Assembly: GCA_021018995.1 (NCBI GenBank)
Contig: CM037588.1
Span: forward strand, 82,371,765 to 82,435,764
From: Chloranthus sessilifolius
Taxonomy: Eukaryota; Streptophyta; Magnoliopsida; Chloranthales; Chloranthaceae
Direction: 5' to 3'
Length of the DNA: 64,000 nt
In this document: in pieces, positions 3,970 through 63,405 of the stretch
Position numbering within the stretch: the stretch's first letter is position 1
Layout of the letters: every line of letters begins with the position of its first letter
Notes under the pieces: generated by a model
The model's input: only the letters and a program-made list of their open reading frames with translations
Told to the model about the DNA's origin: nothing
The model's database searches: none
Made by a program: the position numbers and the translations under genes

Positions 3970-4089
3970 GGCGGAACTAATAGTTGCGCCAGTTTTAAAG
4001 TGGACCCCACCCCTCGCAAAGCCAACTTTTAGGCTACTGTACATAACTGTTTTACTGTATATTTTCCTGGTGCAACTAATAGTTGTGCC
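3970..4089 (+). repeat. Two Tat-A palindromes in solo LTR
   Basis: 21-bp near-palindromes at 3970-3990 and 4069-4089: arm GGCGGAACTA or GGTGCAACTA, one central A, then the complementary arm. Their 99-bp spacing equals that of the last two palindromes in the other Tat LTRs (97-100 bp). The upstream two sites of the full LTR array are missing here. Confidence 0.9.
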
Positions 4090-11151: not shown

Positions 11152-12785
11152 TGTAGAGACCCAAATTTGGCCCAAGGCCCGATTAAAACGCCTTTCGAGA
11201 GAGGTGCAATTCGGAGCTTCTGATGACATATATGAAACCTTTAGAAACCCCCCTAGAACCCTTAGGAACCTTTCCAAACCCTTAGGAATCACCCTAGATC
11301 CCTTAAGAACCTGACTCGAACCTTTAGAAATCAATCCCAACCCTTAGAACTCTTTCTGAACTTAAACCTAACCTTATCAAGTAAATGGTTGAGGAGGGGT
11401 GCCCCGGAACTAGCTAGAGCCCTCTACTATGATTGAATCTCATACCATTGAAAAGTAGAGGTCGTCAGCTTTCCAACGGTCCAAGAATTGCCCAAATCAG
11501 AGGTATACATCGAATGATACGACAAATAGAGCCCGAAGGGCATAAGTGTAAATTCATGTGGGTCCCCTAGGGATTTGGCTCAACTAATATTTGCACCAGT
11601 TATAATTTTGCCTGGCACAACTATTAGTTGCGTCAGGCCAATTCTCCCAAATTTTAAGCCTAACGCAACTATTGGTTGCGCTAAGGTTAAAGGTGGGGCC
11701 CACCCTCATGAACCAACTTCCAGGCACTGTTTAAAACTGTTTTACTGTATATTTCCTATTGTTGCGCCAGACATAAAAATAGTAACTTCTAGATTTCGCC
11801 CCAAAAATTATGATTGGGGTTTGACTTGTTGACCACCTTGACCTTTGGGATGTGTTTTGCTAGTTCTGTTGTACCCATTCCCTAGCTATTTGCAATCCTT
11901 CAAGTGGCTTATGGCCTCACCCCATCATCCACCATTGGAGGACCTTCTCACACATCTCAAGGCTTCAAAAACCCTAGGAATCCTTAGATGTGAGATTACC
12001 TAATTGCTAAACCCATTTAGCTCCTAAGTGATCTCCTAATCCACCCATTTCCTACAAATAGAGAGCCCCACCCCTTGGTTTAGGGGTTGAGAATTTTGGC
12101 ATAAGAGAGAAAGAGCTTAAAGTGAGAAGATCTTTCTCCCTTTGGTGCACACTTCTCATATAAATTCCAGATTTCTAAAAGCTCCCTTAGACCTTAGCAT
12201 TTCACTAAAAGCCTTTAGGCTAGGTGTGTGTAATCCCTTAGCCTTCCTTCTCTACCTCTTAGCTTCAAGCCTTAGGAGTTAGAACCCCATTTCATACCAT
12301 ACCAGCCTTCAAAAGTTTATCAAAGCAAGCAAATGCAAGGCTCCTCTACGGTGCTACAAGGGCCTGAGGGCTCCGTCTCTCCCCTTTCTTCTCCTATCTC
12401 TTCTTTAGCTCTTCTCATCCTCCCATTTGTGCCGTTACACCACCGAATTTTCGATAGGAACGGAAGGGCACAAATAGGATTTCAGACCAATATGGGCAAG
12501 AGGAAGCCATTTCCTTTTCTTTTACATCATTTTTATTTTGGCCTTTAATAGAGGCCGCGTTAAGCGGATTGATTTGGTGCCTAACACCTTCCCAATCGAT
12601 AACTGAAGCCCCTACCCAAGAACCTTTGGTGTGGACCGGATTCAGAGTCCTATTTTTAGCACTTCACTGCTCATAAAAATGCTTTAGGTTTCTCGAGACA
12701 CCAAAAGCTTCGGGTGGCGACTCTATATTTTTTATAAGCGAGTGCATCGCTGCAATGGGATGGTCACAAATCCCACGGTTGCAGA
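11152..12785 (+). repeat. Tat-A 5' LTR
   Basis: It starts TGTAGAGACCC and ends GGTTGCAGA (CACA expected from the 3' LTR). It carries four palindrome positions: 11577-11597, 11614-11634, 11662-11682 and a half site ending 11768. The TATA box is mutated to TACAAATA at 12052. The open frames on either strand inside (11116-12548) are not genes. Confidence 0.9.
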
Positions 12786-13602: not shown

Positions 13603-13765
13603 GGCGCAAGTATTAGTTGCGCCAGTGCAAAAAACTAGAATTTATAACTAGCGGAACTAATAGTTGCGCCAGCTTTAAAATCCATGTTTTTACCTTGGCG
13701 CAACTAATAGTTGTGCCAGTGTAAAAACGTGCCCCTGCCACCTGGGCGCAGGGATTAATTATGCC
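13603..13765 (+). repeat. Palindrome array in Tat-A gag leader (four sites)
   Basis: Sites at 13603-13623, 13650-13670, 13697-13717 and 13745-13765 (last degenerate). Start-to-start spacing is 47, 47 and 48 bp. The best arms read GGCGCAACTA, with a single A or T in the centre. The array sits about 270 bp before the first gag-frame ATG, in transcribed leader. Confidence 0.92.
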
Positions 13766-14029: not shown

Positions 14030-15992
14030 GGTATGAGTGCCACTCGAGAAGGGAATTCTAAGGCCTCAGAACCTTTGCTTGTCAAAAAAAATTTCCAAAA
14101 AAAAATCAAATAAAAAAATAATAAAAAGCAAATCAAAAACCAAAAAAATAGTTTGTGGTGCCGGCATAACAACATCATCTTGTCCTTCGTCGTCTTGTAG
14201 GGGAAGAAGGAGGAGGATTTTTGGGCCTTATCCAAGGCACCCTTACCCAACCCATTCCCAAAGAATGTCATGGGTAGTGGACCCGACTTACGTTGATCCC
14301 GATTCATCCCCGCCACATTCTCCAACCCACTCCCATTCGGGACAAGTTTTTTCCACCATCCCCCTCACCCAACCACCCTATACCGTTACCGGCCCGTTTG
14401 GCGCCTCCATCTTCCCAACCGATACCCCCCGAAATATCCAAAGTCCAACCCCCCATTCTCCATCTTTTGCATAAACCATTCCCATGCCAAGTCCAACCCA
14501 TTTCCCTTCCACATCCACACAAAACCCATTCTCTCAATCCACATCCATCTCCCATTTCCCATCTTTCCCCTATAGGCCCGATCCACCCACATTCACATAC
14601 ACTACTTCCTCCCTATCGAACCCCCCACAAATCCCCCCATCTACTTGGGTCATGCCCATTTTTTCCGGGGCCATGCCCGGGTTTTTTCAAGCATCCACCC
14701 CTAACATCCCTAATCCTTCCACATCCTTTGCCCCTCCTCAACTCTCCAATCCACCCCATACCCTACCTCTTACCATGGCCATGCCCGATCATACAAGGGT
14801 CATTCCCAATTTCCCCTCCATCCCATCTCCACCACCGACATCCAATCCTCCCTCCATGACCATGATGGAGGAGATGTTCCAAGCCTACTCCATATGGAAG
14901 GCTTCTCAAAACACCTCCCCTCCTCCACACCCCATGTCCCTAAACCCATCTCACACCCTAGCCAATCTCCATGCCTCACTCCTCAATGACCCCCATCAAC
15001 CCCCCATAATCCACACTAGCCAAACTCCCATTACCCACATGCCCTAAGGCCCCGTGGCCCAATCTCCCACTGCTCATACACCCCTTGGCCAAATGGCCCA
15101 ATCTCCAACCTCTCACATACCCCAGGGCCCATTGGCCCAATCCCCCTTTTCCCACATATTCCAGGGCCCCATGACCCAATACCCCACCACCTAAACCTTC
15201 CCAGGGCCCATGGCCTAGACCTATCGAGGCCCCTTGGGCCAAACCCATCAAGGGTTCATGGCCAGACCCACCAAGGCCCATTAGCCCAAACCCATCAAGG
15301 GCCCATGGCCCAGACCCACAAGGGCCCATTGGGCCAAACCCATCAAGGTCCCGTGGCCCAGACCCACCAAGGTTCATTGGCCCAAGCCTAAACCTACCCA
15401 GGCCCATTGGCCCAAACCCATCAAGAGCCCATGGCCATGACCTACTCATGGCCCATGTTCCAAACCTACCAAGGGCCCCTGGCCCATACCCATTAGTGGC
15501 CCATAGCCCAAAATGACCAAGGCTTCATGGCCCAAACCCAAACCCCACACTCATACCTTCCACAATACCCCCAACATTTCACCCAACCTTCAAAGCCAGG
15601 TCAAACCCATGCCATACGCCAAACCCAATTTTTCCATGGCCCCACACCCCATGGCCATCTCCAAACCTTCCCCCATACCCAATGGCCCCATCAGGCCCCA
15701 CCTCTAAGCCAAAATCCTATCACTCAACAAACCTTTCCTCACCCTCAATGGGCTCACCTCACCCCCACTCATGTCATTCCCCTCCAACCCGGGCAACAAC
15801 AACAAGAAAATCTCGCCCTCACTGCACATTATGCCGACCAGCAGTATGAGGAGGATGAGATTAGGAATAGCGGGGCCTATGCTGGGGCATTGACCAGCCT
15901 TAACCCTCCTCCCATAATTGCCCACCCCTTGGTGGCCCAGAGTGAAGTCCAACTAATCTACGAGAAAGCTCAGATCAAAAGAGTCGAGCAAA
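14030..15992 (+). pseudogene. Tat-A gag N-terminal region, Pro/His-rich and frameshifted
   Basis: All three plus frames give Pro-, Ser- and His-rich reading (for example 14293-14859 and 14484-15047) because the DNA is CCA/CCC-rich. A basic Lys-rich start follows the ATG at 14033. Frame 2 then carries the QTHQGPMA-type repeat and ends in GQQQQENLALTAHYADQ (about 15795), just before the gag core. Long Pro-rich N-terminal gag regions are usual in Tat elements. Several frameshifts and stops are present. It is not an extensin or other host gene: it lies between the primer site and the gag core. Confidence 0.75.
15040..15530 (+). repeat. Minisatellite in gag N-terminus (QTHQGP-A repeats)
   Basis: About 15-18 diverged copies of a 21-24 bp unit with GGCCCATGGCCCA and ACCCA(C/T)CAAGG. 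In frame 2 it reads GPLAQTHQGPMAQTHKGPLG and variants. Units keep a multiple of three in most of the array, so it once coded for a tandem peptide repeat. Confidence 0.85.
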
Positions 15993-29901: not shown

Positions 29902-30568
29902 ATGCCCACTCTCACTGGGCGGACTGCACGCTGGCAGCTCTTATTATCTGAGTTCAACATCACGTATGTCACTCAGAAGTCGATTAAGGGGCAGGCACTC
30001 GCCAATCATCTTGCTGACAATCCTTTGCCAAATTATGAGCCTTTGACAACTGAGTTCCCAGATGAAGATATCTTGTTCATGACGGAAGACGACACTGAGG
30101 AAGCAGAAGAATCTTGGGTAATGCACTTTGACGGGGCGACAAAAAGCCAAGGGTCAGGGAGTTGGCGCCATTCTGATCTCTCTAAAAGGATCTCACGTAC
30201 CCGTCTCTATCAAGCTCAACTTCCCTTGCACTAATAATATAGCTGAGTATGAAGCATGTTCCACAGGTTTGTAGGCGGCTCTCGATCTAAATATAACTCA
30301 CCTTCGAGTGTTTGGTGATTCACAGTTAATCATATGTCAGACAAATGGTGACTGGAAGATGAAAGACGAGAAACTGATCCCCTATCATGAACACCTCAAG
30401 CATCTGATAGCTTGCTTCCAAGACGTGACATTCTCATATGTCTCCCGAACAAGGAACCGTTTTGCCAATGCACTAGAAACTTTCGGGTCAATGACAGAAA
30501 CCCTGTATGGTGCTGAGATGAAGCCGATCATGATTGAGCAGAGAAGTGAGCTGACCTTCTACCTATAG
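29902..30568 (+). pseudogene. Tat-A RNase H end and second (archaeal-type) RNase H
   Basis: 29902 onward reads TGRTARWQLLLSEFNITY and VTQKSIKGQALANHLADNP, the end of the first RNase H. An acidic linker follows, then WVMHFDGATKSQGSGSW (first Asp of the second RNase H). A shifted stretch has NIAEYEACSTGL (catalytic Glu), LRVFGDSQLII (second Asp) and RTRNRFANALETFGSM. A deletion removed most of the first RNase H. The double RNase H is the mark of the Tat lineage. Confidence 0.88.
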
Positions 30569-33271: not shown

Positions 33272-34740
33272 GAGTTAGCGGCCCAACTCATGCTTCAATG
33301 CGCTAATCTCAACATGAAGGTCATCTTCGCAGACATTTCGCTCAGTCAGCCAGTGACCATACAGACTCTTATACCTCTTCCGAGAAGAGTCGGTGGCTCC
33401 AAAAGCGACGCTCAATGAACCCTTCAAATGGAGGACCTCGCTCTCTGCTGTTTCTTCTCTAACCTTTTCATGTACCAAAAGTTCTTGCAGGACCCTCTTC
33501 TTGTCCACAAGTAGCTCGATACGGGCTCGAAGTGCCGTCTCCTTCTTTGGCCAAGGACCTCCAATATCAACGATCTTTGCTGAATGAGGACCATCAGCAA
33601 CAGGTCGCTCAGTCAATAGCCAGGCCTCGTACTCAAGAGAAGTTCTGACTAAATCTCCCTGCTCAAAATCACACATCAGCGTCGACTGACACATCTCCCA
33701 AAGAGCAGCAATCCGATCTATGTCTCCAGAGGACACCTTAGAAAAGATCAAATCACATAGAGGGCTACTGAGGGCAGCCAAATTGGTGCAATACCCAAAA
33801 TGGGAAGTAGAAGATACTGTCAGTCAATCCTAGGAGGGGGATGCCCTCTTGGTCTTTAGAGAGAACTACTGGGAAGGTCCGGTCCAACCAAGGAAGCCTC
33901 TATGTCAGCTCGGCATCGGTTAACCAAAGTTTCAAAGTTAACACATTGCCCTATGGAAGCAAATGGCACCTACCTAGAAAGCACTGAGCCGCCTCACCTC
34001 GAGAAATATAAAAGCAGGGCACATGCCCCAAGACAGCGAGGTGCTCACCCAACCAGACCTGAAGCAACAAGGGGCACCCCCGAAGGCCCTCCACCTTGCC
34101 CAAAGCAAAGGAATCAAGGCCTCGATATAGCTCAGCGAGCACCAAATGCATCATGGACCGGCCCTCCTCCAGCTCAGTCAATATATCGCAAATTGCTAAG
34201 GAGAAGCTCTCCCCCCCGATAAAAAAGAGGATTTCAGAGATGAGACCGAGTGCTAGAGCTTTCACGTTGAAAATGTTCCTAACCGGCAATTTTCAGAGAC
34301 TTTTGTCACCGAAAAGTTCTTTGAGGAATTTTAGCGAACACCTAGTGGGCCCCCCGATGAGACTTTTCTCATACTCAAGTTTCTTCAAACCAAGAGTAAG
34401 GTGGATGGATTTGGAGTAGCCCAGCCGAGGCGTGACTCTTACAAGACTCCTGTGAAGCTTTAGGCCAAATATATTGGATAGCTCCTCGAGGGTTGGGGTT
34501 AGCTCCCACTTCCCAAAATGGAATACATGGGAATTCACATCCCTAAATGAAGCGGCAACGAAAAGGAGTTCCCACCATGGAGGAACTTCTAGAAAGGAAG
34601 GCAAGATAGCCCAAGGCACTCCAAGTTGGCGAGCTCACTCTCAGTCAAGCTCCAAAATCAGGTTGCTAGAAATTTAGGCCCCAGGCCCAAGGAAGGGGGC
34701 AAATTGGCTCCAGGCCCTCCACGTAAAGGAGGGTAGTGGG
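33272..34740 (-). pseudogene. Tat-A antisense gene aORF2 (own N-terminal domain plus coiled coil)
   Basis: Read on the minus strand. The N-terminal part (34619-34293) has WELLFVAASFRDVNSHVF, then FHFGKWELTPTLEELSNIFG and GGPTRCSLKFLKELFG. It is the clear homologue of the intact reading at 63552-64000. The middle is broken by many stops. The C-terminal frame 33781-33275 (168 codons) is Leu, Glu, Lys and Arg-rich with heptad-like spacing (AALWEMCQS, ELLVDKKRVLQELLVHEKVREE), hence a probable coiled coil. No start codon survives near 34735. Antisense ORFs between pol and the 3' LTR are known in Tat elements; the function is unproven. Confidence 0.75.
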
Positions 34741-34913: not shown

Positions 34914-35078
34914 GGCACAACTATTAGTTACGCCTATGTTTTTCTCCCCCAGGTTGAGCCTGGCGCAACTATTAGTTGCGCCAGCACATTTTGGTCCCCA
35001 TTTATTCCTGGTGCAACTAATAGTTACGCCAGTACATATTTTTTGGGATTTCAACCTGGCACAACTAATTGTTGCGCC
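34914..35078 (-). repeat. Palindrome array upstream of Tat-A aORF2 (four sites)
   Basis: Sites at 34914-34934, 34962-34982, 35010-35030 and 35058-35078: exactly 48 bp apart three times over. The second is a perfect palindrome: arm GGCGCAACTA, centre T, and the complementary arm. CCT and AGG often extend the arms to 13. It lies just upstream of the aORF2 TATA. Confidence 0.95.
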
Positions 35079-35444: not shown

Positions 35445-37825
35445 CTATTCCTTGCTCGCACCCTTTCATTTCTTGCAACGGCGAGAGGAGCTTTGAAAGG
35501 TCCGAATGTCCCCCACCCTGGACCACGCCTGAGAGATCCTACTGAGTAAAGAACGTGACTCCTTAACACGAGCACACTGCAAGGCACAGTCAAAGTCAAG
35601 AGTAAGGATAAGTTAAGGGACAAATGATGACGATGATACTCAGCATATTCCATGGCCGAGTTGAAGTCCTATGTTCAGAATGATATAACATCAATTATTA
35701 GGGCAATCTTAAAGCATGTGTAATAGGAGGATGAAACAAACAGAGATTGGGCCGTCAGCAGACTTACCCCTGGAACCACCTCAGGAGGAGGGACACGATC
35801 CGCCTCAGCAGAAAGTCGCGCTTGTCAATCCATGTCCACGCAAAGGCCCGAAAGGAAGCTGTCATCTAGGCACCGAAAGGTCCCATAAACCACGGGCGGA
35901 TCGCCACCAAGGATACCCGCATGAGAGGTACCTGACAGACCAACACCCGAAGAGCCCTCTCCTGAGGGACCCACACCAGAATGGCTAGCACCGGAGGGAT
36001 CTTCCCCTGACATATCTGCTGCACTCGTCCTGCCTTCACCATCCAAATCATCCCCTGGAGCAAACTATGAACAAAATAAAGATCCGCCTAGAAGGAATAA
36101 AGGATCGAACTAAAGCATAAAGGGAACTAATCCAAGCTAAGAAGAATTACCTGACCAAGTGGGCCATCGAAAGCAAGAAAATTGGAGCTAGGTACAAAGC
36201 GCAGCAAGATAAACCGGTACGGCAGGCACTCGTGCTAAAGATGATAGTCCTCGGGCACATGGAGATCATGGATGGGAAGCCCATTCTTGAAGAAGGCTGC
36301 AGTAAGCTCCTCGATACTGCCAACGGGATACCAAACATCCGCTGGAGGGTCTATAGGTATGGCATAATAACCCCAGAATTGGTGCACCACTCGCTCTCCT
36401 AGATAATAGAATTTGGCCCATGCTCCATAGATGAAAATGACGCAGCGATTGTTAAGTAGGCTGGAAGCGCCTACAACTGCTCGGTCCTAGAAGGGGGATG
36501 CAAGGTACGGGTCAGGGAGGATCTGCCCAAGTAAAAAAAAAGAATCCAAGCAGTTAGCACCTCAATAAAAGGTAATTCCTGAGCTAAGAACAAACAAAGT
36601 TGAAAGAGAGTTTTACCTGCTTAGGAACCATCAAGTCGAGTTGGGACCTCAGACCTGTCTCCAAGTGCTTTAAACCTACATCGAGGCACCAGGCCTGATT
36701 TCAATTGCTGACGAGGGGATAGATGAGCACCTCCAAGAAAAGAAGTGGGCGCCCAGGGTGAAAGTGATGATATCCCCATAGCTGAAAAGGGGGCATTACA
36801 CAAGAGCAGGTCAATAGCGTATATGGATCATTCAAAAAGAAAAAAATGGCAAAGGTAAAAGAATGAGGAATTACTTTCAGGGTGGCCCAAAATCCAACAG
36901 CAGACTTTGAATCCCCGGTGGTGACCTGAGACAAATTGTACATCAGCCATGCATACCTTGCCCCTCCCCAGTCATACTTATGGGCGTCACCCCAGTTGTC
37001 CATCACACTCAGCAGGGCTAGGCTGACTCGGCCACCGCTCGCATTGGTGAAAAGGGTCTTACCAAGCAGGACCAAGAGAGTAATGCGGGTTAGGAAAATC
37101 ACCCGCTCTGGCATGATGTAGAGCACCCTGTCTGGCAGACCCATATCCACTAATTAACCAGGTGTATAAAGTGAGGTCAGCCAAGACATCTTGACCTCGG
37201 TGCTATGTGTCTGCCTATGAGGAGGATATGCCCCAATCAATCGAATGATGTCCTCTTGACTCGGCACCGCGAGATCGGATATCGGTATCCCCCCTATCCT
37301 GATGACGGTAATCATGGCCAAGTCGATGGGCATCAAAGTCATCTCTGCATACGGCATGTGAAAGGTCATCGTCTTAGGGCGAAACTGTTCAATCAGGGCT
37401 TTCAGATAGGCAGCGTCGGCCCTCATGGCGGGGCAAGATAGAAATTCTCCAAAGCCCACCTGTGCCAGAAGGACCTTTACTACGGGAGGGATGTAGAGGT
37501 AGAAATCTTGGAAGTCGAGCCACCCGTCATAGAATACAATGTTGGGCAGGTCCTGAACCGAAGAAAATACTCATCAGATCACAGGGGCAAAGTAAAAACT
37601 GCATAATGGAAATGAATTGAACCTCTCTTTTACCTTGCCCGCTATCCCGAAATTTGAAATGTGGGTATACTGTTGATGAAGGAGGCCGACTCGGGCAGCC
37701 TCACCTTGCATCTACGGGCCCACTCTTCGATCTACCCAGATGAACTGCTCCCCCTCGGGCCGTATATATTCTCAGGCCCCTCTTCGTGGCCCTCCTCGAG
37801 AATATGCTCACCCTCACCCGACATT
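35445..37825 (-). pseudogene. Tat-A antisense gene aORF1: plant mobile domain (PMD) protein, seven exons
   Basis: Exons on the minus strand: 37825-37634, 37552-36875, 36781-36617, 36522-36151, 36064-35768, about 35668-35609, 35576-35445. Exons 2-5 are 678, 165, 372 and 297 bp, all multiples of three with GT-AG ends. Exon 2 carries the PMD core: ALIEQFRPKTMTFHMPYAEM, then LLGKTLFTNASGG and NWGDAHKYDWGG. Exon 5 is a Ser/Gly/Pro-rich linker then GTFRCLDDSFLSGLC. Exon 7 ends basic (SLLSRISQAWSRVGD). Lesions: one base lost in exon 1 and stops in exons 4, 5 and 7. PMD proteins occur in plants and in many plant transposons; the role here is unknown. Confidence 0.85.
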
Positions 37826-39014: not shown

Positions 39015-39130
39015 GGAGCAACTAATAGTTGTGCCAGGCAAAATGTTTCCACCTTTTGCTTGGCGCAACTATTAGTTGCGCGAGGCTATTTTGAGGCCCC
39101 TAGTGGCCTAGCACAACTAATAGTTGCGCC
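39015..39130 (-). repeat. Palindrome array upstream of Tat-A aORF1 (three sites)
   Basis: Sites at 39015-39035, 39062-39082 and 39110-39130, spaced 47 and 48 bp. Arms are of the GGCGCAACTA type; the flank CCT or AGG is kept in two of them. It lies about 150 bp upstream of the aORF1 first-exon donor. Confidence 0.93.
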
Positions 39131-40032: not shown

Positions 40033-40048
40033 ACAAAAGAGGGGCATC
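40033..40048 (+). other. Tat-A polypurine tract
   Basis: ACAAAAGAGGGGCATC directly before the LTR start. Tat-B1 and B2 carry the reverse complement form GATGCCCCTCTTTGG at 52652 and 57392. It would prime plus-strand DNA synthesis. Confidence 0.88.
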
Positions 40049-41691
40049 TGTAGACACCCAATTTTGGCCCAAGGCCCGATTGAAACACCATTCGAGAGAG
40101 GTGCAATTTTGAGCTTTTGATGACATGTATGGAACCTTTAGGTACCCCCTAGAACCCTTAGGAACCTTTCTAAACTCTTAGAAATCACCCTAGATCCCTT
40201 AGAAACTTGACCTGAACCTTTAGAAATCAATACCAACCCTTAGAACCCGTTCTGAACCTAAACCTAACCTTATCAAGCAAATGATTGAGGCGGGGTGCAC
40301 CAAAACCAGCTATGATCCTCTACTGTGATCGAATCTTATACCATTGAAAAGTAGAGGTCGTCAGCTTTCAAACGGTCTAAGAATCGCCCCAATCGAAGGT
40401 ATACATCAAAAGATACGGCAAACTGAGCCCGAAGGGCTTAAGTGTAAATTCATGTGGGCTCCCTAGGGATTTGGCGAAACTAATAGTTGCGCTAGTTATA
40501 ATTTTGCCTAGCACAACTATTAGTTATGCCAGGCCAATTCTCCCAGATTTTAAGCTTGGCAAAACTATTAGTTACGCCAAGGTTAAAGGTGGGGCCCACC
40601 CTCGCGAACTAACTTCTAGGCATTGTTTAAATCTGTTTTACTATACATTTACCTGGTTTTTTAATAGTTGCACCAAGTATATGAACAGTAACCTCTGAAT
40701 TTTATGTTGAAAATCATGATTAGGGTTTGACTTGTTGACCACCTTGACCTTTGAGGTGTATTTTGCTAGTTCTGTTACACCCATTCCCTACCTATTTGCA
40801 ACCCTTCAAGTGCCTTAAGGCCTCACCCCATTATCCACCATTGGAGGACCTTCTCATACATCTCAAGGCTCCAAAAACCCTTAAGAATCCTTAGATGTAT
40901 GATTACCTAATTGCTAAACCCATTTAGCTCCTAAGTGATCTCCTAATCCACCCATTTCCTATAAATTGAGACCCCCACCCATTGCTTTAGGGGTTGAGAA
41001 TTTTGGCCAAAGAGAGAAAGAGCTTAAAGTGAGAAGATCTTTCTCCCTTTAGTGCACGCTTCTCATACAAATTTCAGATTTCAAAAAGCTCCCTTAGACC
41101 TTAGCATTTCACTAAAAGCCTTTAGGCTAGGTGTGTGTAATCCCTTAGCCTTCCTTCTCTACCTCTTAGCTTCAAGCCTTAGGAGTTAGAACCCCATCCA
41201 TACCAAAGAAGCCTTAAAAAGCTCATCAAAGCAGGCCAACGTAAGGCTCCTCTACGGTGCTATAAGGGCCCGAGGGCTCCGGCTCTCCCCTTTCTTCTCC
41301 TATCTCTTCTTTAGCTCTTCTCATCCTCCCATTTGTGCCGTTACGCCTCCAAATTTTTGGTAGGAACAGAGGGGCACAAATAGGATTTAAGACCCATTTG
41401 GGTAAGAGGAAGCCATTTTCTTTTCTTTTATATAATTTTTGTTTTGACCTTTAGTAGAGACCGCATTAAGTGGGTTGATTGGGTGCCTAACGCCTTCCCA
41501 ATCGATAATCGAAGCCCCTACCCAAGAACCTTTGTTGTGGACCAGATTCAGAGTAATATTTTTAGCACTTCGGTGCTCATAAAAATGATTTAGGTTTTTC
41601 AAGACACCAAAAGCTCCGGGTGGCGACTCTATACTTTTTGCAAGTGAGCGCATCGCCGCGACGGGATGGTCACCAATCCCATGGTTGCACA
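40049..41691 (+). repeat. Tat-A 3' LTR
   Basis: It starts TGTAGACACCC and ends GGTTGCACA. Palindrome positions: 40473-40493, 40510-40530, 40558-40578 and 40655-40674 (spacing 37, 48, 97). TATAAATT is at 40960. After it the Athila-1 RT resumes. Confidence 0.92.
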
Positions 41692-42375
41692 TAAATCAAC
41701 TTAGTGCTAAGATGGGAGAAGAGCCATTTCATGGTTCAGGAAGACATAGTCTTAGGACATATTGTCTCTAAAAGAGGAATAAAAGTTGACAGAGCTAAAA
41801 TTGATGTAATAGTGAATCTAGCACCACCAACTTTAGTACGGCAGATTGGATCTTTTCTTGGCCATGCTGGCTTCTATCGCCGATTTATTAAAGATTTTTC
41901 AAAAATCTCGAGACCATTATATAACCTATTAGCAAATGATGTACTCCTTAACTTCGATGATGCCTGTCTTGATGCATTTAACAAGCTTAAGGCACTTCTG
42001 TCATCCGTCTCGATTATTCAACCTCCCGACTATTCACTTCCTTTCGAAATAATGTGCAATGCTTCTAATTACACAATAGGTCCCGTCTTAGGACAGCAAA
42101 GAGACAAGGTTCCACATGAAATTTATTATGCAAGTGAAACCTTGATTGAAGCTCAGGTTAACTATACCACCACTGAGAAAGAGCTTCTCGTTGTAGTCTT
42201 TGAGTTGGATAAATTTCGACCGTACCTATTGGGATCTAAGATCGTAATCTTTTCTGATCATTTTGCATTAAAATACTTACTATCTAAAAAGGATGCCAAG
42301 CCAAGACTAATCTAGTGGATCCTTCTTTTATAGGAATTCAACTTCAAGATCAAGGATAAGAAGGGAGTTGAGAAT
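41692..42375 (+). pseudogene. Athila-1 RT 3' part and RNase H
   Basis: From about 41698 the reading NLVLRWEKSHFM continues the RT broken at 11151. It is followed by GHIVSKRGIKVDRAKID, FLGHAGFYRRFIKDFS (RT thumb/connection), then RNase H: FEIMCNASNYTIGPVLGQQ (first catalytic residue Asn where Asp is usual), YTTTEKELLVVVFELDKFRPYL and KIVIFSDHFALKYLL (catalytic Asp). The frame 41704-42315 is open for 203 codons, the longest intact stretch of Athila-1. A stop at 42313 follows. Confidence 0.9.
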
Positions 42376-51059: not shown

Positions 51060-52651
51060 TGTGCGATCATGGATCCTCGCGACGATGCGCTCGCCTAACG
51101 AATGAAAATATAGAGTCGCCACCAGGAGCTTTTGGTGACCCAAGAAACCTTCAAATTAATATTTTGAGCACCGAAGTGCTAAATATGACCCTGATTTACC
51201 AGTCCTTGCCAAAGGCTCTAGGGTAGGAGCTTCGGTTATCGATCGGGAAGGGTTTAGGCACCCGATCAACCCGCATACAGCGGTCTCTATCTATGGCCAA
51301 AATAAAATAAAAAGAAATAAAAATAAGGGTGGAGTTTCCCCTTGCACGAAAGCAATACGGTCTTATCAAGCTTTGAGCCAAAACCGAAATTTGACGGCGT
51401 AACGGCTTGAATCCTTGGACGGAGGAGACACAAAGAAGGTAGAGGAAGAGAGGGGTGAGCCGGAGCTCACGGACCCTTGTTGCACCGTGGAAGTCCTTCA
51501 CTTTGGCGTGCTTCCGATGGCTTAAACGATATGGAAATGGATTCTAACACTAGGATTCGGTAAAATAGGAAGTATAAGGTGAGGTTAAAGGCTAGACTTT
51601 AGCAAAAGGGAGTGATCTAATGTTGGAAATGGGTTGAAATGGATGAACTAAGCATGCTGGAATTTTTGAAAAGTGTGCATTTTCTCTCACTAGGGTTCTC
51701 TCTCAAGCTCCAAATCCTTAACCTCCAATTTTTTCAACCCTTAAGGAAGAGGGGGGCCTCTCTATTTATAGAGAAGAGGAGAGTTAGGGGCTTACTTAAG
51801 AGAGCTAATGGGTTTAGCAATTAGGTAATCCCCTCATCTAAGGTTTTCTAGGTTTTTAAGGTCCTAGGGTTGTGGGGAACCTGTTTCAATGGCAGATGAT
51901 GGGGTGAGACCAAAGGTGACTTAAGGGTTGCCAATAAGCTCAAAGGGGGTGCAACCAACCTTAAGACACCCACCTTAATTAAGGGGATGGTCAAGGGGTC
52001 AAACTAGATGAAGGAAATTCGAGCAACTGATAATAGTTGTAGCTAAGCTAGGCGTATATATTATATACGCCCAATTTAGGAACAGTAACTTCACGAAAAT
52101 CAGGGGAGTTTTGAGAAGATGAAGCCCGTGGTGGGTCCCACCTATACTGGGTGTATATATTATATACGCCCGGCAAAATTTTCCCTAAAATAGGCAGGCG
52201 TATATAATATATACGCCTGACTAATCTGGGGCAAAAATGGCTGGGCGTATGTAATATCTACGCCTGAGTAAAAGTCCTATGATTTTATGTGAAATTTTGA
52301 ATAGTCATAACTTTTGAACCGGCTCTCCAAATTACGTGATCTTTGGCTTGTTAGAAAGCTGGAGAAGTCCTCTTTCCAATGGTATATGGCTCATCCTTGG
52401 TAATGGTCTGTGTGAAATTCTGTAGCTCGCACCCCATAACCCGCTCAGAAGGGTTTAAGTTAGGTCCGGGAAGGGATTCTAGGGTTTAGGGTTGACTTCT
52501 AAGGGTTGGGGAATGGTTCTAAAGGGTTCAGGGTGATTCGTAAAGGTCTCGGTGGATTCCTACGGGTTCAGGAGTGCCATCGGAAGCACAGGGGTACATC
52601 TCTCCCGAAGTACAGATTGATCGGGCCTTGGGTTGAATTTGGGTGTCTACA
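51060..52651 (-). repeat. Tat-B1 3' LTR (1592 bp)
   Basis: The reverse complement starts TGTAGACACCC and ends CGCACA. It has the same plan as the Tat-A LTR, with palindromes at 52051-52071, 52150-52170, 52197-52217 and 52244-52264 (spacing 99, 47, 47). They are of the GGCGTATATA type. TATAAATA (minus) is at 51763-51770. The minus-strand frame 51196-51501 is LTR sequence, not a gene. Confidence 0.92.
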
Positions 52652-53937
52652 GATGCCCCTCTTTGGTATTCGATCACTAATGATCGGATGCCAAAGACAA
52701 GAGACATTCGAAGAGGTCCAAGGCACGTTTGACGGGTCCACCTCAGTTCAACTCAATTCTCAAATATCCATGGTGATGGTGAGTGTACGAAAGCCCTCTC
52801 ATTTCGGGATATCGTCCGTACCTCAGAGCTAACAGTCCCCAAGCGCATTGCGACATTACTGGGCATAACTGTGATGATCACAAAAGGTGTAAGCCCGCTA
52901 GCCGGGATATCGTCCACTTCCTGAGGGAAATTATAGATTTGTGATGTTGAGTATTAATCTGAACCAGATAGCTCCATGAAATGGGATGATCTATGCTTCA
53001 GAATCGATGCAAAGAGCACAAAGCGAAGGCCTTCAAACTGTGTCCAATCCTATGGGATATTGACAGCTCGATTGGATTGGCCATAGGTGCCCTAACCTAG
53101 GTAAGGCTTAAAGTCTCTGGGTGAACCCATCAACCTCGAGGTTATTTTAGCGCGCTTTGCCCGAGTGAAGCGAAGATTGATGTTGCAACACTTCTTGGGA
53201 ATGCATGCCCATTTTCTGAGTTAATTTTTTGTGTTTCCTTTTTCCAAAATTTCTTTTGTTTCGAGGCCTCTAAGCAAAGCTCAAGGACCTCTGACAACTT
53301 TATTCTTGCACAACTCTTTAAGTGGATCAAATGCCAGTTGATACGCTTTTAATAGTGCGTGCCCCATGCCGGGGAGAGGTACACCTTGGAGATGTGTATG
53401 TTCTAGTGGTGAGGTGCTCCTGATCCACATGAATCAGAGTGCCTTATCTTGAGACAAAGCTAAAAAAGATCGGGCTAGAACCAAACATCCCTCGAAAGAG
53501 ATGGCCAATTCTAGCCTCCATCCCTAATGAAATCACATCTTACTAACTATGCACAGACATACACCCATCAGGGGCAATAAGCAGCAAAATAGGCGCGAAC
53601 GGAAGCCTCGACCCTAAGGTACAATTTACGAGGACAACGACCATCCTGCGGATACCCAAACGCAAGTGCGTACATTCAACAGGGACACCGTGCCTATACA
53701 GGTTTTAAGCCTGTGTAAAAGGAAATAAAAGGGAAACGAGCCCTTCGGTCTGTATGTTTGCACATAGTTTGGTCGGTTGTAATTTCATTTTTGATGGGTC
53801 AGCTTCAACTAACAATAGACTTTTCAAATGGTCTGAAGTCGGGGGCACTCTTGGTCAACATAGATCCATAGGTGGATGATCAGAGCTAACGACTGGAAGG
53901 TGGGGTCAACCTTACTCAATATTTATAACCAAAGGTT

Positions 53938-54056
53938 ATTATTTCTCCCTTTTTTTTCTTTTCTCTTTTTTTTCTTCTTCTTTTTTTTTTCTTTTTTTTT
54001 TCTTTTTTTTCTTCTTTTTTTTTCTTCTTCTTTTCTTCTTTCTTCTTTTTTTTTGT
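53938..54056 (+). repeat. 119-bp polypyrimidine tract
   Basis: Almost only C and T, mostly T with CTT units. On the element's sense (minus) strand it is a polypurine run. B2 has a shorter one at 58680-58728. It gives the false frame at 53876-54064. Confidence 0.9.
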
Positions 54057-54780
54057 CAGTTTGAGACTCTGAGCATGCTCAAGTTGCTTTTATTTTTGCA
54101 CGTATCCTTAGGCGAATCAACTTGCCATGTTGATATACCTTAAGGATGTGTGTATTCCGGTGATGGGTCCTTGGTTTGCCTGCCGGATCAGGCCCTGACT
54201 TCTGCTGGGGAAGATCTGGGGCTAGGTGTATGTCCTAGGAGTGACCGGTGAGGGATAGGTTTATTTGCCTGCTGGATCAAGTACTGACTCCTGGGGATGT
54301 GTGGTCTTGGTCTTTAAACAAATGAGACCCAAGTATCTGCTTTGGAAAGTGGGTTCCTAATGACCAGGGATAAACATGACAAGTATTTTGCCTGCCGGAT
54401 CAGGCGCGAGGTGTCCCTACGTAAAACAGGGTTTGAGAATTTTTGGGTGAACCCGATCATCCCGAATTGAATTAGCACGGCTCTCGGAGTGGGGCAAACA
54501 GGCATTGCAACGCTCTTTTTGAGAACTAGTGTCACATATTTTTCTTTCTTCTTCTTTTTTCTTCTTTTTTAATTATTTTGTGGGCGCATTAGATGGGCGC
54601 CTACAGGTTTAGATCCGCTTATTGTAGCACAGTCCCTTTGGGCCAATCGAAGTGAACTCGAAGGGCCATTTGGAGATGCGCGCACCTTCGCCTGATGATA
54701 TATGGGCCTCTGAGGGGGGTCCGAGCCGTGGTCCATCATGCAAGGGATCCGTCGGGCCTCAAAATCGAGAAAGGAGGCCG

Positions 54781-54909
54781 GGCAGTTTGAAAACTGCCAT
54801 TTTTGGTCGGGCGTATATAATATATACGCCTGACCAAAATCTAGCGAAAAATGGTCGGGCGTATATATTATATACGCCCACCTAAAATCTGGCAGTTACG
54901 AAACTGCCC
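54781..54909 (+). repeat. Tat-B1 palindrome array upstream of aORF1, framed by a second palindrome type
   Basis: Sites 54810-54830 and 54858-54878 (48 bp apart) are perfect: arm GGCGTATATA, one central A or T, then the complementary arm. Outside them lie GGCAGTTTGAAAACTGCC (54781-54798) and GGCAGTTACGAAACTGCC (54892-54909), an outer pair of a different palindrome. Confidence 0.93.
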
Positions 54910-55421
54910 GAGCCCGAGTACAAAAGGGGGCCCCCTTTTCAAATTCTCTCCTCCCTCCTTTCTTCTTGAGTCTGGGACAACCCCTTAGGGTTTTTTTTTT
55001 TATTTGGCTTGAGTTCTATTACCGGCGGTCGCGGGTGTGGATCGAAAGACGCTTATCCTCCGCCGCTATTCGTTTTTCTCTCCCATTGAAGGTAACCATT
55101 ACCTTTCCTTCATTTTTCTTTCGAATTTTTGATGATATTGCCTCTTTCTTTTTTTTGCTTTTTTTTCTTTGATGAAATGCTTTGTGATGCCTATATTTCC
55201 CTTTTCTCCTTTTTTGTTTTAGTTGTTTTTTCTCTTTTTTGAAATATTTGATTCCTTAGGCCTATTTTCTATCCATAATTCATTTATTTTGTTTTTCTCT
55301 CTCTTTTTGTTTTCGATGGATTAGTGCATCTTATTTGATGGATTGGTGCCTCTCTTTGTTTTTTTTTTTTAGCGCATACATATATTAGTATACGTATATA
55401 TGTATATATTATTATTTATTA

Positions 55422-55453
<32 letters not shown>

Positions 55454-55801
55454 GTGGATTAGTGTGCACACACACACATATTTTTTGTTTGTTGATGGGT
55501 TAGTACACACACATTTTTTTTATTTTGGATTAATACGCACACACACATTTTTTGTTAATGGGTCAGTACACACACATTTTGTTTTTGTTTTTCTTTTTGG
55601 ATTGGTACACGCCTTTTTTTTTTTTTTTTTTTTAGGTTAGTACACACACACAGATCTCCTTTTTTGGATTAGTACGCTCGCACATGATTTTTTTTTTTTA
55701 GTACACACACATATCTCTTTTTTGGATTAGTACCCACACACACACACATGGTTTTTTTGTTTTTTAGTACACACACACACATCTTTTTTCGGATTAGTAT
55801 A

Positions 55802-57391
55802 TGTGCGACCGTGGATCCTCTCGAACCCGTCGCGGCGATGTGCTCGCCTTGGATAAAATGTAGAGTCGCCACCCGGAGCTTTTTGTGACCCGGGAAACTT
55901 TCAAATCGATATTTTGAGCACCGAAGTGCTAAATATGACTCTGACTTACCGGTCTTTGCCAAAGGCTCTAGGGTAGGGGCTTCGGTTATCGATCGGGAAG
56001 GATCTAGGCATCCGATCAACCCGCACGTAGCGGTCTCTATCTATGGCCAAAAATGAAAATAAAAAGGGGGGAGTTTGCCCTTCCCCGAAGGCAATACGGT
56101 CCTATCAAGCTTTGAGCCAAACCGAAATTTCGGCGGCGTAACGGCTTGAATCCTTCGACGGAGGAGACACCAAGAAGGTAGAGGAAGAGAGGGGTGAGCC
56201 GGAGCTCACGGGCCCTTGTTGCACCGTGGAAGATCTTCGCTTTGACGTACTTTCGATGGCTTAAATGGTGTGAAAATGGGTTCTAATGCTAGGATTCAAT
56301 AAAGTAGGGGGTGTAGAGTGAAGCTAGAGGCTAGGTTTTAGCTAAAGGGAGTGATCTAATGGTGGAAATGGATTGGAAAAGATGAACTAAGCTTGCTGGA
56401 ATTCTGGAAAATGAGTGCACTATCTCTCACTAGGGTCCTCTCTTGGGCTCCAAATCCTTAACCTCCAATTTCTTCCAACCCTTAAGGAAGAGGGAGGCCT
56501 CTCTATTTATAGAGAAGGGATGGGTTAGGAGCTTACTTAAGAGCTAATTGGTTTAGCAATTAGGTAATCCCCCATCTAAGGTTTTTTGGGTTTTCAACGT
56601 CCTAGGGTTTTGGGAAACTGGTTTCAATGGCAGATGATGGGGTGAGACCATGGGTGACTTAAGGGTTGCCAATAAGCTCAAAGGGGGTGCAACCAATCTC
56701 AAGACACCCACCTCAGCCAAGGGGATGGTCAAAGGGTCAAACTAGATGGAGGAAATTCGAGCTACTGATGACAGTTACTGTAGCTAAGCTGGGCGTATAT
56801 ATTATATACGCCCAGTTTAGGAACAGTAATTTTCACCAAAATCAGGGGAGTTTTGAGAAGATGAAACCCGTGGTGGGTCCCACCTATACTGGGCATATAT
56901 ATTATATATGCCCGGCTAAATTTTCTCCAAAATAGGCAGGCGTATATAATATATACGCCTGAGTAATCTGGGGTAAAAATGGCTGGGCGTATGTAATATC
57001 TACGCCTGAGTAAAATTCATGATTTTATGTGAAACTTAAAACGGAAATAACGTTTGAACCGTGGCTCCAAATTGGGTGATCTTTGGCTTGTTGGAAAGCT
57101 GGAGAAGTCCTCTTTCCAATGGTATATGGCTCATCTATGGTACTGGTCTATGTAAAATTCTATAGCTCTCCTCCCATCAACCGCCAGAAGGGTTTAAGTT
57201 AGGTCTGGGAAGGGATTCTAGGGTGTAGGGGTGACTTCTAAGGTTTGGGGGAATGGCTCTAAAGGTCTTAGGGTGATTCCTACAGGTCTAGGTAGGTTCC
57301 TAAGGGTTCAGGGGGGGGCATCGGAAGCACAGGGCACATCTCTCCCGATGTACAGATTGATCAGGCCTTGGGCCGAATTTGGGTGTCTACA
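55802..57391 (-). repeat. Tat-B2 3' LTR (1590 bp)
   Basis: Closely similar to the B1 LTR throughout. Palindromes are at 56792-56812, 56892-56912, 56939-56959 and 56986-57006 (spacing 100, 47, 47). TATAAATA (minus) is at 56504-56511. It ends directly against TG-rich intron sequence, without a primer site, as a 3' LTR should. Confidence 0.92.
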
Positions 57392-59365: not shown

Positions 59366-59448
59366 GGCGCCTGACCAAAATCTGGCGAAAAATGGTCGGG
59401 CGTATATATTATATACGCCCGTCTAAAATCTGGCAGTTACGAACTGCC
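59366..59448 (+). repeat. Tat-B2 palindrome array upstream of aORF1, one site collapsed
   Basis: Site two is intact at 59399-59419. Site one has shrunk to GGCGCC (59366-59371): compared with B1 the 15 central bases are cleanly missing while both flanks are kept. The outer palindromes remain (about 59337-59354 degenerate, and 59432-59448). Confidence 0.9.
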
Positions 59449-59635
59449 CAAGCCCGAGCACAAAAGGGGCCCCCCTTTTCAAATTCTCTCTTCCTCCCTC
59501 CTTTCTTCTTGAGTCTGGGACACCCCCTTAGGGTTTTTTCATTTGATTTGGCTTGAATTCCATTACCGGCGGTCGCGGGTGTTGATCGAAAGGCGCTTAT
59601 CCTCCGCCGCTCTTCGTTTTTCTCCCCCATTGAAG

Positions 59636-60419: not shown

Positions 60420-60420
60420 G

Positions 60421-62819
60421 ATGTCTGGTGACGAGGGGCATGATCAGCAAGAAGGGCCGGAAATGGCCTACGGCCCCCGTGGGGAGCAGTTCATTGTGTC
60501 TCAGCGCTCCTCCCAGCCTTGGTATGAGATGCAAGGCGAGGCCGCCCACACCGGCCTCCTCTACTGCCAGCACACCCATATGTCCAACTTCGGGATAGTT
60601 GGTCAGGTAAGCAGATGGACCCCCTCCTCCTTTCTGCTTCTTTTGATGCCCTCATTATATCTCCCTGCCCCTATCTGATTGATGCCTTTTGCTTGAAGCC
60701 CCTGCCGCACATTATGTTCCGAGGCGGTTGGTTTGACCTCCAGCGTCTTGTGCTTTACCTTCCCCTAGTGGTGAAAGACCTACTCACGGCTGCCGATTTT
60801 GGGGACTTCATTTCGTGCCCCGCTGTAACAGCTGATACGGCCAATTTAAAAACGCTGATAGAGCGTTTTCGCCCCGAGACGATTTAGAGATGGCCTTCAC
60901 TCCGGCGGACTGGTCTATGATCACTGGGGTCCATATCGGAGGTGTGCCCGTGGTACCTACCCGCACACCGGGTAGGGAGGAGGTAATTCAGCTGCTAGGG
61001 GCCTACCCGTCCTTAGGGAACGTTCGGGGCTCGGAGGTCAAGCTATACTGGTTGGTTGATCAGTTTGGGCCTAATGAGTTGGTGGACCAGGGGCAGCCCG
61101 ACATGGACATTTACATCGAGCCTGCGTGGGCACTTATGCTGGCCCGCATCTCCTTACTGTTCCTCCTGGGCAAGACTCTCCTCTCCAACACCAGTGGCGG
61201 GCAAGTCTCTTTGTCCCTGCTCAGCTTGATGGTGAACTGGGAGACCGTGCATCGATTCGATTGGGGCGGCAATGGCTATGCCGTACTCATGTCCAGCCTA
61301 AAGCGGGCCGTTCTTGGGGAGTCTAGCTCCATTGTGGGTTTCTGGCCTGCCATCAAGGTATTTTATCTTTTGTTTTTAGTTTACTCAATTTTATTTGATG
61401 GCATACCTGTCCTCATCTGCCTGCTTTCTCAGGTCTGGGGGTACCTTCACTTTCAGCCGGGTCGCCCTCTGCTTCAGTCTGACATTGCTACGTTCCCCCT
61501 TATGAGTAGCTGGCACGTGGGTCGCCGTCGGGACGTAGGTATGAAGCATTTAGAGTTAGGACTACGCTCTCAGTTGAACCTATTGATCCCAGAGCAAGTA
61601 AAACAATTCCCTTTTTGTAAATTTGGTAGCTCAACTTCTGTGTGCTAGGGGTTCTGATCAAATGTGCACCTCCCCTTCCGATTTTTTCTTCTTTTGCAGG
61701 TCATCCTCGACCCTTACATAGGATCCCCCTTCTGGAATTTGGCCTCAGTGGGCCCCTCTCGTCTTTTGCTGGACTGTCGTATCATCTTTCTCTACGAGTC
61801 CTGGACTAGGGCCTACTATTTAGGGGAGAGAGCGGTTCATCAGTATCGCCCTCTCTTTGCCGTGCCCCAAGCTCCTCCCGCCGAAGTGTTGGCCCCAGAG
61901 GGCTCCATTGATGAGCTGACCGCTCACTTTCATCATCATGGGGTTCCTATCGATGACCTTCTCACGCCGAGGGGTATCGGTCTTTGCGACTCCACCCCTA
62001 TCATTTCTTGCTGCCTCGCTTTGTGCCTGGTGCTAACTTTTTAGCTTTTGGCGGGCCGCGATCTCAGGTATTGCCCTTTTTCTTCTTTCATTCAGCAGCT
62101 TTCACATGGTTACCTAGATTGATCTGTCGCCCTTAATGATAAAATATTTCTCTTTATAGTTTGAGCAGGGTGGAGACTCAGATGAGGGGGAAGAGGAGGC
62201 CGTTCCCTATGATGCAACAGGTGCTGGACCTTCCGATCCTTCCGGGGCTGGCACCTCTGGCGTGGCTTTAGGTGCTGAACCCTCTGACCCTTCTGGTGCC
62301 GGTGCTTCTGGTAGCTCGCCCGTCGAAGTCCAGGGGACCTTCAAGCGCCTGGATGATGCCTTTCTGTCACGCGTGTGTGCCGACGTGGACGAAAAGGCAC
62401 GGATTTCTGCTAAAACTATCCAGGTCCCACCTCCCGAGCTGATTCCTGGGGTAATCTCTATCTCGTTGCTCTGTTCTCTTTCCCTTTGAATTATGCTGAT
62501 GGCCTGCGTGACTAACACCTCCTTTTTCTTGATTATGAGTCGACAGTGAGTCAGGCCGAGTACTACCGTAACCTCGTTGGGCTTAAGGAGACCAAAGTGG
62601 TGAGTGAATGCTGGCCTAACCTAGTCATTCTCCTAGTTTACTTTCTGCCTGTTTCTCTATCTGATGGCTTTTGGTGTGCCTCTGCAGCGTGCTCGTAAAA
62701 AGGAGTCGCGCTCCTTGCTTAGCCGTATCTCTCAGGCATGGACTCGGGTGGGGGAGACTCGTACCTTTCAAAGTGCGAGCCGGCGCCGGAAGAAGTCAAA
62801 GGGGGTTGCCCAGAACTAG
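60421..62819 (+). pseudogene. Tat-B2 antisense gene aORF1: plant mobile domain (PMD) protein, seven exons, lightly damaged
   Basis: Exons: 60421-60606, 60699-61357, 61433-61597, 61700-62067, 62160-62450, 62540-62599, 62688-62819. All introns are GT-AG, and all coding junctions are phase 0. Exon 2 holds the PMD core: LIERFRPETI, MAFTPADWSMITGVHIGG, WALMLARISLLFLLGKTLLS and NWETVHRFDWGGNGYA. Exon 5 is acidic then Gly/Ser/Pro-rich; exon 7 is basic and ends KKSKGVAQN. Lesions against Tat-A: exon 2 lacks 19 bp near 60885 (stop), and exon 4 has a 1-base shift near 61990. It is antisense to the element, with its own upstream array. The product is unknown; nuclear DNA or RNA binding is an inference from the basic tail. 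Confidence 0.88.
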
Positions 62820-63214: not shown

Positions 63215-63378
63215 AGCGTATATATTATATACGCCAGGCCAACATTCAGCAATCAATAGCCGGGCGTATATATTATATATGCCTGACCAATCCCCAACAA
63301 AAATGGTCGGGCGTATATATTATATACGCCACGCACAATTTTTTCAAAATTTACCTTGGCGTATATAATATATACGCT
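63215..63378 (+). repeat. Palindrome array upstream of Tat-B2 aORF2 (four sites)
   Basis: Sites at 63215-63235, 63263-63283, 63310-63330 and 63358-63378; spacing 48, 47, 48. Arms GGCGTATATA. This is the same number and geometry as upstream of aORF2 in Tat-A (34914-35078), although the arm bases differ. Confidence 0.95.
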
Positions 63379-63405
63379 TGCTATAGGCTGTACCCAGCGG
63401 GCTCC

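Follow-up and report, generated by a model that had tools for sequence, protein, structure and literature searches.

Palindrome arrays in two Tat-type retrotransposons of Chloranthus sessilifolius: candidate operators of an element-encoded dimeric regulator

Introduction

What is the role of a short palindrome that recurs at regular distances in several non-coding parts of one retrotransposon? This question is raised by a 64,000-nt stretch of the Chloranthus sessilifolius genome (CM037588.1, positions 82,371,765-82,435,764; assembly GCA_021018995.1), which is called the window throughout this paper and constituted our sample. The window carries two diverged elements, Tat-A and Tat-B. We assign both of them to the Tat-type Ty3/gypsy retrotransposons on the basis of the long terminal repeat (LTR) pair of Tat-A, its RNase H and integrase matches and the PMD-type antisense open reading frames (aORFs). 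In both elements 21-bp palindromes stand in arrays in the LTRs and upstream of two accessory reading frames, aORF1 and aORF2. Our strongest result is a concerted switch of the palindrome sequence between the two families, in which corresponding positions of both arms differ in separate arrays. We consider it roughly 60% probable that the arrays are the operators of a self-encoded regulatory circuit, in which the regulator would be a dimeric, element-made PMD protein (aORF1/aORF2).

Antisense reading frames between pol and the 3' LTR are a common property of Tat, Retand, Ogre and Grande elements (PMC6317226, PMC11963269, PMC7264820; most papers cited here and below are quoted from parts of their text). 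PMD was reported for 57% of the Ogre elements and Transposase_28 for 23% of the Retand elements (PMC6317226). For the antisense reading frame of Retand a regulatory, DNA-binding role has been proposed (PMC11963269), and gene23 of maize Grande has its own promoter, with a regulatory role being suggested for antisense reading frames (PMC7264820). In contrast, palindromic arrays appear undescribed for this group: in the parts considered, the word stem "palindrom" occurs in PMC11963269 only in the title of a reference and is absent from PMC6317226 and PMC7264820. In the open-access literature searched, part of it with palindrome terms, no description of palindrome arrays in Tat elements was recognised.

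Results

Palindromic sites and their arrays

The window was searched with the pattern GGCG-n4-TAWTA-n4-CGCC allowing up to 3 mismatches, and 100 shuffles served as background. Here, we found 38 matches, when 5.35 were expected (standard deviation 2.35; maximum of 11 in the 100 shuffles). Because of their clustering these 38 matches are far from independent. Five of them (12223, 40488, 41130, 57910, 63399) seem to be due to chance or, in the case of 40488, to overlap with a real site, and this is about the number expected from shuffling. The 33 remaining matches and 11662, which has 4 mismatches, give 19 sites for Tat-A and 15 sites for Tat-B. Weak sites are 11662 and 40510, each with 4 mismatches to the Tat-A consensus, and 13745 with 6. 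The sites form the following arrays (steps in bp):

34914..35078, Tat-A, upstream of aORF2: sites 34914, 34962, 35010, 35058 (steps 48, 48, 48)
39015..39130, Tat-A, upstream of aORF1: sites 39015, 39062, 39110 (steps 47, 48)
13603..13765, Tat-A, gag leader: sites 13603, 13650, 13697, 13745, the last one weak (steps 47, 47, 48)
11577..11768, Tat-A, 5' LTR: sites 11577, 11614, 11662 (steps 37, 48) and a half-site remnant at 11761-11768
40473..40674, Tat-A, 3' LTR: sites 40473, 40510, 40558 (steps 37, 48) and a decayed fourth site at 40654 (96 bp on)
3970..4089, Tat-A-like solo LTR: sites 3970, 4069 (step 99), corresponding to LTR sites 3 and 4
52051..52264, Tat-B (element on the minus strand), LTR, copy 1: sites 52244, 52197, 52150, 52051 (steps 47, 47, 99)
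56792..57006, Tat-B, LTR, copy 2: sites 56986, 56939, 56892, 56792 (steps 47, 47, 100)
54810..54878, Tat-B, upstream of aORF1, copy 1: sites 54810, 54858 (step 48)
59399..59419, Tat-B, upstream of aORF1, copy 2: single remaining site
63215..63378, Tat-B, upstream of aORF2: sites 63215, 63263, 63310, 63358 (steps 48, 47, 48)

The two decayed fourth LTR sites of Tat-A were recognised by eye. An initial annotation of this DNA had described four sites at exact 48-bp steps upstream of Tat-A aORF2, and all of them were found. The array positions it gave for the gag leader, the aORF1-upstream region and both LTRs of Tat-A were recovered by the pattern and consensus scans, and its count of about 21 Tat-A sites including the solo LTR corresponds to 19 sites within 6 mismatches of the consensus plus 2 remnants. 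The 15 sites of Tat-B and the conservation outside the 21-bp core (see below) are additions to that description.

Tat stretches, which were assigned from self-alignment of the window, comprise 35,632 bases. All 38 matches, the five chance-like ones included, fall inside these stretches and none was found in the other 28,368 bases, so that the suggested restriction of the sites to Tat DNA holds within the window. Matches to either family consensus (up to 6 mismatches) were also absent from the window outside the Tat stretches, and 20 Markov shuffles yielded 0 such matches at up to 5 mismatches. In our background collections a two-site pattern was absent from both viral_contigs and genome_contigs (0 matches each). 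A single-site pattern gave 0 viral and 7 isolated prokaryotic matches, and none of the seven had another site within 120 bp at up to 3 mismatches.

Tat-A and Tat-B carry their arrays at equivalent places (LTR U3, upstream of aORF1, upstream of aORF2) and with similar spacing. The distance between the aORF2 array and a TATA-like box is 28 bp in both elements (TATATA at 34886 on the minus strand in Tat-A, TTATAA at 63406 on the plus strand in Tat-B). The last LTR site is separated from TATAAA by 286 bp in Tat-A (TATAAA at 40960) and by 281 bp in Tat-B (TATAAA at 51770, minus strand). The aORF1 arrays speak against a simple promoter rule: the only candidate box next to them is TTTAAA (38996, Tat-A), and the nearest TATA[AT]A of Tat-B is located at 55395. 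The earlier statement that each promoter-like region has its own array holds in part: arrays stand upstream of the LTR TATA box, aORF1 and aORF2, and the gag-leader array is followed by no TATA[AT]A over 535 bases (see Discussion).

The long gap of the LTR arrays contains a perfect GTGGGNCCCAC palindrome in both families (11693-11703, 40589-40599, 52131-52141, 56873-56883). At up to 1 mismatch there are 9 matches to GTGGGNCCCAC in the window vs. 0.99 expected, and 4 of these 9 are perfect. We take this palindrome to be a TCP-type host site.

Concerted switch between the Tat-A and Tat-B sites

The Tat-A site reads GGCGCAACTAWTAGTTGCGCC and the Tat-B site GGCGTATATAWTATATACGCC, with the differences located in the inner arms. 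From the aligned LTRs and promoter regions we obtained nine equivalent pairs (three LTR, four aORF2, two aORF1). Excluded were LTR site 1, which is unaligned (37 vs. 47 bp to site 2), site 39110, for which Tat-B has no counterpart, and the second copies of Tat-B. For LTR site 4 of Tat-A the solo-LTR copy was used, since the other Tat-A copies are decayed. Comparing Tat-A with Tat-B in these nine pairs, we found no identical base at any of the positions ±3 and ±4 (0/9 each) and two at each of the positions ±6 (2/9 each). In the remainder of the arms, which comprises fourteen positions, 109 of 126 comparisons gave the same base. As neutral yardstick we used the third codon positions of aORF1, of which a fraction of 0.41 (144 codons) and 0.37 (62 codons) is identical. 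From these data it can be seen that six positions per site have been altered mirror-symmetrically in three contexts (LTR, aORF1, aORF2), while the rest was mostly held.

We read this symmetric change as the trace of one dimeric factor that would serve all sites of an element and whose specificity would differ by family. Since the change is seen in three separate arrays, local tandem duplication, which homogenises only one array, is insufficient to explain it. As an argument for a dimer, the switch carries more weight than the spacing.

Extent, decay and spacing of the sites

Sequence conservation runs about 8-10 bp beyond the 21-bp core, to about position +19. This flank consists of AGG followed by an A-rich part in Tat-A and of C/T-G-A/G-C followed by an A-rich part in Tat-B. 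For positions +11 to +20 we calculated an information content of 4.63 bits for Tat-A (30 half-sites of 15 sites; maximum of 1000 shifted controls 1.53) and of 5.20 bits for Tat-B (20 half-sites of 10 sites; maximum of the shifted controls 1.40). Repeated LTR and aORF1 copies (3970, 11577, 11614, 11662; 56792-56986, 59399) had mostly been dropped from these sums. With predicted footprints of about 39 bp, little of the 47-48 bp pitch would be left free. Owing to the outer flanks the spacers are partly self-complementary (z-values between -0.5 and 4.1 for 16 spacers). A second site within the spacers was considered for this property and set aside, and we read it as part of the extended half-site.

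CpG transitions account for 14 of the 42 substitutions in the 19 Tat-A sites and for 4 of the 10 in the Tat-B sites. In the Tat-A sites 16 of the 76 CpG positions were changed vs. 26 of the 304 other positions. Such CpG decay fits cytosine methylation of the arrays after insertion, in the past.

When the LTR copies, which are not independent, were counted separately, 18 of the 24 distances between neighbouring sites amounted to 47-48 bp and the others to 37, 37, 96, 99, 99 and 100 bp. One gap of 37 bp and one of 97-100 bp had been claimed for each LTR. The 37-bp step is indeed present in the two Tat-A LTRs, but it is confined to them: the Tat-B LTRs have steps of 47, 47 and 99 or 100 bp, and the long step of the Tat-A 3' LTR measures 96 bp. 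At 10.5 bp per turn, distances of 37, 47.5 and 99 bp correspond to 3.52, 4.52 and 9.43 helical turns (mean resultant 0.88). These step lengths are close to half-integer turns, which places most neighbouring sites on opposite faces of the helix. The step of 96 bp falls off this pattern; the site at its end is decayed.

Antisense accessory proteins

The remains of the accessory reading frames are located as follows:

36701..37570, minus strand: Tat-A aORF1 remains, open pieces 37154-37570 and 36701-37153
33275..34634, minus strand: Tat-A aORF2 remains downstream of the 34914 array, open pieces 34293-34634, 33951-34292 and 33275-33823
60836..61648, plus strand, antisense to gag-pol: Tat-B aORF1 open piece
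62688..62795, plus strand (Tat-B), and 35469-35576, minus strand (Tat-A): basic exon, 29/36 residues identical

Nine aORF pieces were scanned for domains, and two of them matched PMD above the cut-off of 34.9 bits: 37154-37570 of Tat-A (minus strand; E 5.4e-9, 36.1 bits) and 60836-61648 of Tat-B (plus strand; E 2.4e-12, 47.1 bits). The second aORF1 piece of Tat-A (36701-37153) matched PMD below this cut-off (E 6.5e-6, 26 bits) and shares 48% identity with Tat-B aORF1 over 150 columns. For the aORF2 piece 33275-33823 no noteworthy domain match was obtained, and 33951-34292 showed no pairwise similarity to Tat-B aORF1 (E 1.3). DUF1985 matched Tat-B aORF1 (60836-61648) with E 0.014 and 15.8 bits, which is below its cut-off of 35.1, and none of the other eight pieces; we consider this match a lead, not a relationship. 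Transposase_28 was found in none of the nine pieces.

Between Tat-A and Tat-B the identities of aORF1 at the first, second and third codon positions were 0.65/0.69/0.41 (144 codons) and 0.53/0.66/0.37 (62 codons), which indicates protein-level constraint on aORF1. The basic exon follows a splice-acceptor-like CTGCAG in Tat-B and TTGCAG in Tat-A. With 29 of 36 residues identical it is better kept than the other aORF1 pieces (40-50%), its codon-position identities are 0.78/0.92/0.47, and we read it as the C-terminal end of aORF1, to which it would be joined by splicing. A comparison of Tat-B aORF1 with the protein database yielded no match at E 1e-3 among 2579 candidates. IMG/VR yielded 1 stretch for aORF1 and 13 stretches for the Tat-A integrase piece, none of which was confirmed, and there was no match among solved structures.

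Structure of the two elements

The borders of the LTRs of Tat-A and of the related solo LTR were taken from the self-alignment:

11151-12783: Tat-A 5' LTR
40048-41689: Tat-A 3' LTR
3582-5107: solo LTR related to Tat-A
51077-64000, minus strand, opposite to Tat-A: Tat-B, a second, diverged element that runs past the end of the window

Tat-A is oriented from left to right and its two LTRs are 88% identical. Between them we found RVT_3 above the curated cut-off and the integrase domains H2C2 and rve below it. The RVT_3 RNase H (30275-30568, E 1.5e-12) fits the second, archaeal-type RNase H, which is a hallmark of Tat elements; we did not locate the first RNase H, and the pieces scanned yielded no gag domain. 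The pol region of Tat-B and the part matching the gag leader of Tat-A fall beyond the window. The Tat-B LTR shares 59-61% identity with the Tat-A LTRs. Together with about 3.1 kb of the 3' internal region it is present as two tandem copies (51077-55802, 55830-60338), which are about 88% identical across their main block of 2.9 kb.

Several other repeats were observed in and around Tat-A. Its internal repeats 18869-20450/24513-26092 and 21713-22873/27091-28238 are 5.4-5.6 kb apart and 85-91% identical, and they probably represent a nested insertion carrying its own duplicated parts. The gag region contains coding-like proline-rich tandem repeats (15020-15540) with periods of 24, 39, 48 and more. 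Immediately after the 3' LTR there is an open piece with an RT_RNaseH_2 match (41695-42315, E 8.4e-27), which comes from a different retroelement, perhaps the target of the Tat-A insertion. Tat-A is also flanked by repeats (5402-5604/49958-50160 and 8036-8864/50152-51058; 85-94% identical, about 42-45 kb apart), which are perhaps parts of one large enclosing element.

Discussion

In the circuit that we favour, an element-made, sequence-specific dimer would bind the palindromes, with two half-sites per dimer, and the antisense accessory PMD proteins aORF1 or aORF2 are the best candidate binders. Up to three or four dimers would occupy an array at a pitch of about 47.5 bp (about 4.5 turns). Arrays would be bound in the LTR U3, within the gag leader and immediately before the core promoters of aORF1 and aORF2, and the bound regulator would control the LTR, gag-leader, aORF1 and aORF2 transcription units together. 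As the recognition sequence has changed at ±3, ±4 and ±6, the arrays of a family would respond chiefly to the protein of that family. A dimeric protein with sites about 4.5 helical turns apart had already been proposed, and the palindromes, the pitch of 47-48 bp and the symmetric Tat-A/Tat-B change lend support to this suggestion. Binding by a protein, its dimeric state, its encoding by the element, its PMD identity and the sign of its effect are what we infer from the sequence. As to the sign, activation or anti-silencing is in our judgement somewhat likelier than repression.

A number of observations weigh against this circuit. The evidence comes from two families and one solo LTR in a single window, and binomial tests overstate the certainty of the switch, since the sites of one element are not independent of each other. 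Among the fourteen held positions the poorest ones are +7 (4/9) and -7, +8 and -10 (6/9 each). No TATA[AT]A occurs in the 535 bases after the Tat-A gag-leader array. aORF2 is PMD-like by sub-threshold matches only (PMD E 2.2e-4 for 33951-34292, DUF7745 E 8.5e-5 for 34293-34634), and the predicted fold of aORF1 is of too low confidence (mean pLDDT 41.7, pTM 0.24) to show a DNA-binding fold. The Tat-A aORFs are fragmented and 16/76 CpG positions of the sites are mutated, which means that these copies are relics. Finally, the numbers of gap events inside the arrays were 1, 4, 4 and 1, as compared with 1.8, 2.0, 2.0 and 1.3 expected from the flanks. None of these 4 comparisons showed gap events to be significantly rarer than in the flanks (nominally lower in 2 and higher in 2); a single Tat-B LTR, in its two copies, underlies two of the comparisons.

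This last result would also be expected if the arrays were remnants of tandem duplication, with a 47-48 bp unit copied in several places, a functionless palindrome and an inherited spacing. Tandem Repeats Finder still recognises a 48-bp repeat in the Tat-B array upstream of aORF2 (63212-63331, 78% matches), and spacers are slightly more alike within arrays than between them (0.45 vs. 0.40). Taken together, the gap events and the surviving 48-bp repeat imply that the spacing alone could be inherited. The initial annotation had argued from exact spacing to function, and we do not uphold this argument: the spacing is striking but may be partly inherited, and we do not claim selection on it. However, the remaining arrays were not reported by Tandem Repeats Finder (minimum score 40), the spacers diverge while the sites persist, the same site occurs in four Tat-A contexts, and the LTRs have additional steps of 37 and 96-100 bp. 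Moreover, duplication leaves the symmetric change at equivalent positions of separate arrays unexplained, and sites kept at equivalent positions while spacers turn over were partly seen, in two families. We consider duplication as the full explanation improbable. It is rather unlikely, though it deserves more weight, that the palindromes are sites of host transcription factors used as U3 or promoter enhancers, for which the two families would have taken two factors or paralogues. LTR retrotransposons commonly bear host factor sites, and the perfect GTGGGNCCCAC in the LTR-array gap of both families makes this plausible. On the other hand, a host factor would tend to keep both families on one sequence, whereas the nine aligned Tat-B sites differ at the same three positions per arm with the outer GGCG/CGCC mostly kept. 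We know of no host motif of the form GGCG-n4-TAWTA-n4-CGCC.

An element protein might also bind the arrays in a non-activating role, as DNA tether or for pure autorepression of copy number. EBNA1 and papillomavirus E2 are viral proteins with palindrome arrays that can tether or repress. The family of repeats of EBNA1 and the E2 sites resemble the Tat arrays in being palindrome arrays for a self-encoded dimer near viral promoters; the proteins and viruses are unrelated, and the likeness concerns the working principle only. A protein bound to the aORF2 arrays, at 28 bp from TATA-like boxes, could also have a blocking effect, but the presence of arrays at several transcription units including the LTR fits coordinated control better than tethering, and we give such a role a slim chance. 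RNA hairpins of the genomic RNA, acting in packaging, dimerisation or translation control, are very improbable. A perfect 21-nt palindrome can form a short hairpin and the gag leader bears an array, but the imperfect pairs of the sense strand show no G-U bias (10 G-U vs. 14 A-C and 12 other pairs in Tat-A; 1 vs. 5 and 2 other pairs in Tat-B). In addition, the aORF2 array precedes its TATA-like box, which places it outside the inferred aORF2 transcript, and TATAAA is likewise preceded by the LTR array.

The element-encoded regulator that we prefer has its closest parallel in the VANC proteins of VANDAL transposons, which contain DUF1985, bind motif clusters in these transposons and undo silencing (PMC5735166). 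In VANDAL elements short element-linked motifs occur in clusters, which are found in several of the non-coding parts of an element, and the motif types vary between related families and are thought to co-evolve with the accessory protein (PMC5735166, PMC10398659). The Tat arrays are likewise clustered, family-specific motifs in non-coding DNA, and to this extent the comparison drawn by the initial annotation is a useful one. It is a parallel only: VANDALs are Mutator-like DNA transposons, whereas Tat-A is an LTR element with pol domains, and VANC proteins contain DUF1985/DUF287, whereas Tat-B aORF1 is a PMD protein that matches DUF1985 below threshold. The terms "palindrom" and "spacing" are absent from the main texts of PMC5735166 and PMC10398659. 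The Tat arrays would thus work like a VANC-type element-encoded motif-array system, by analogy and not as a member of the VANC system. Within the PMD family, the Arabidopsis proteins MAIN and MAIL1 have been linked to silencing of transposable elements, and genes down-regulated in the mutants are enriched for a promoter "DOWN" motif, for which no binding was shown in the parts of the report considered (PMC7156037). They share the domain family with aORF1, but they are encoded by host genes and not by element genes (PMC7156037).

As a tentative generalisation, to which we give less than even odds, Tat-lineage elements may possess a complete regulon of their own, in which an accessory PMD protein would act through dedicated palindromic operators placed at every transcription unit and would shift its specificity between families in one genome, as LTR-retrotransposon counterpart of VANC anti-silencing. 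To our knowledge, element-encoded family-specific gene control among plant elements is known only from the VANDAL DNA transposons, and if the Tat regulon exists, such control would not be limited to them. The regulon would also give a function to the unexplained antisense reading frames of the widespread Tat/Retand/Ogre group. The site, its extended half-site and the natural pair of specificities make the function of the accessory proteins testable, and the two specificities could serve as orthogonal DNA-binding modules.
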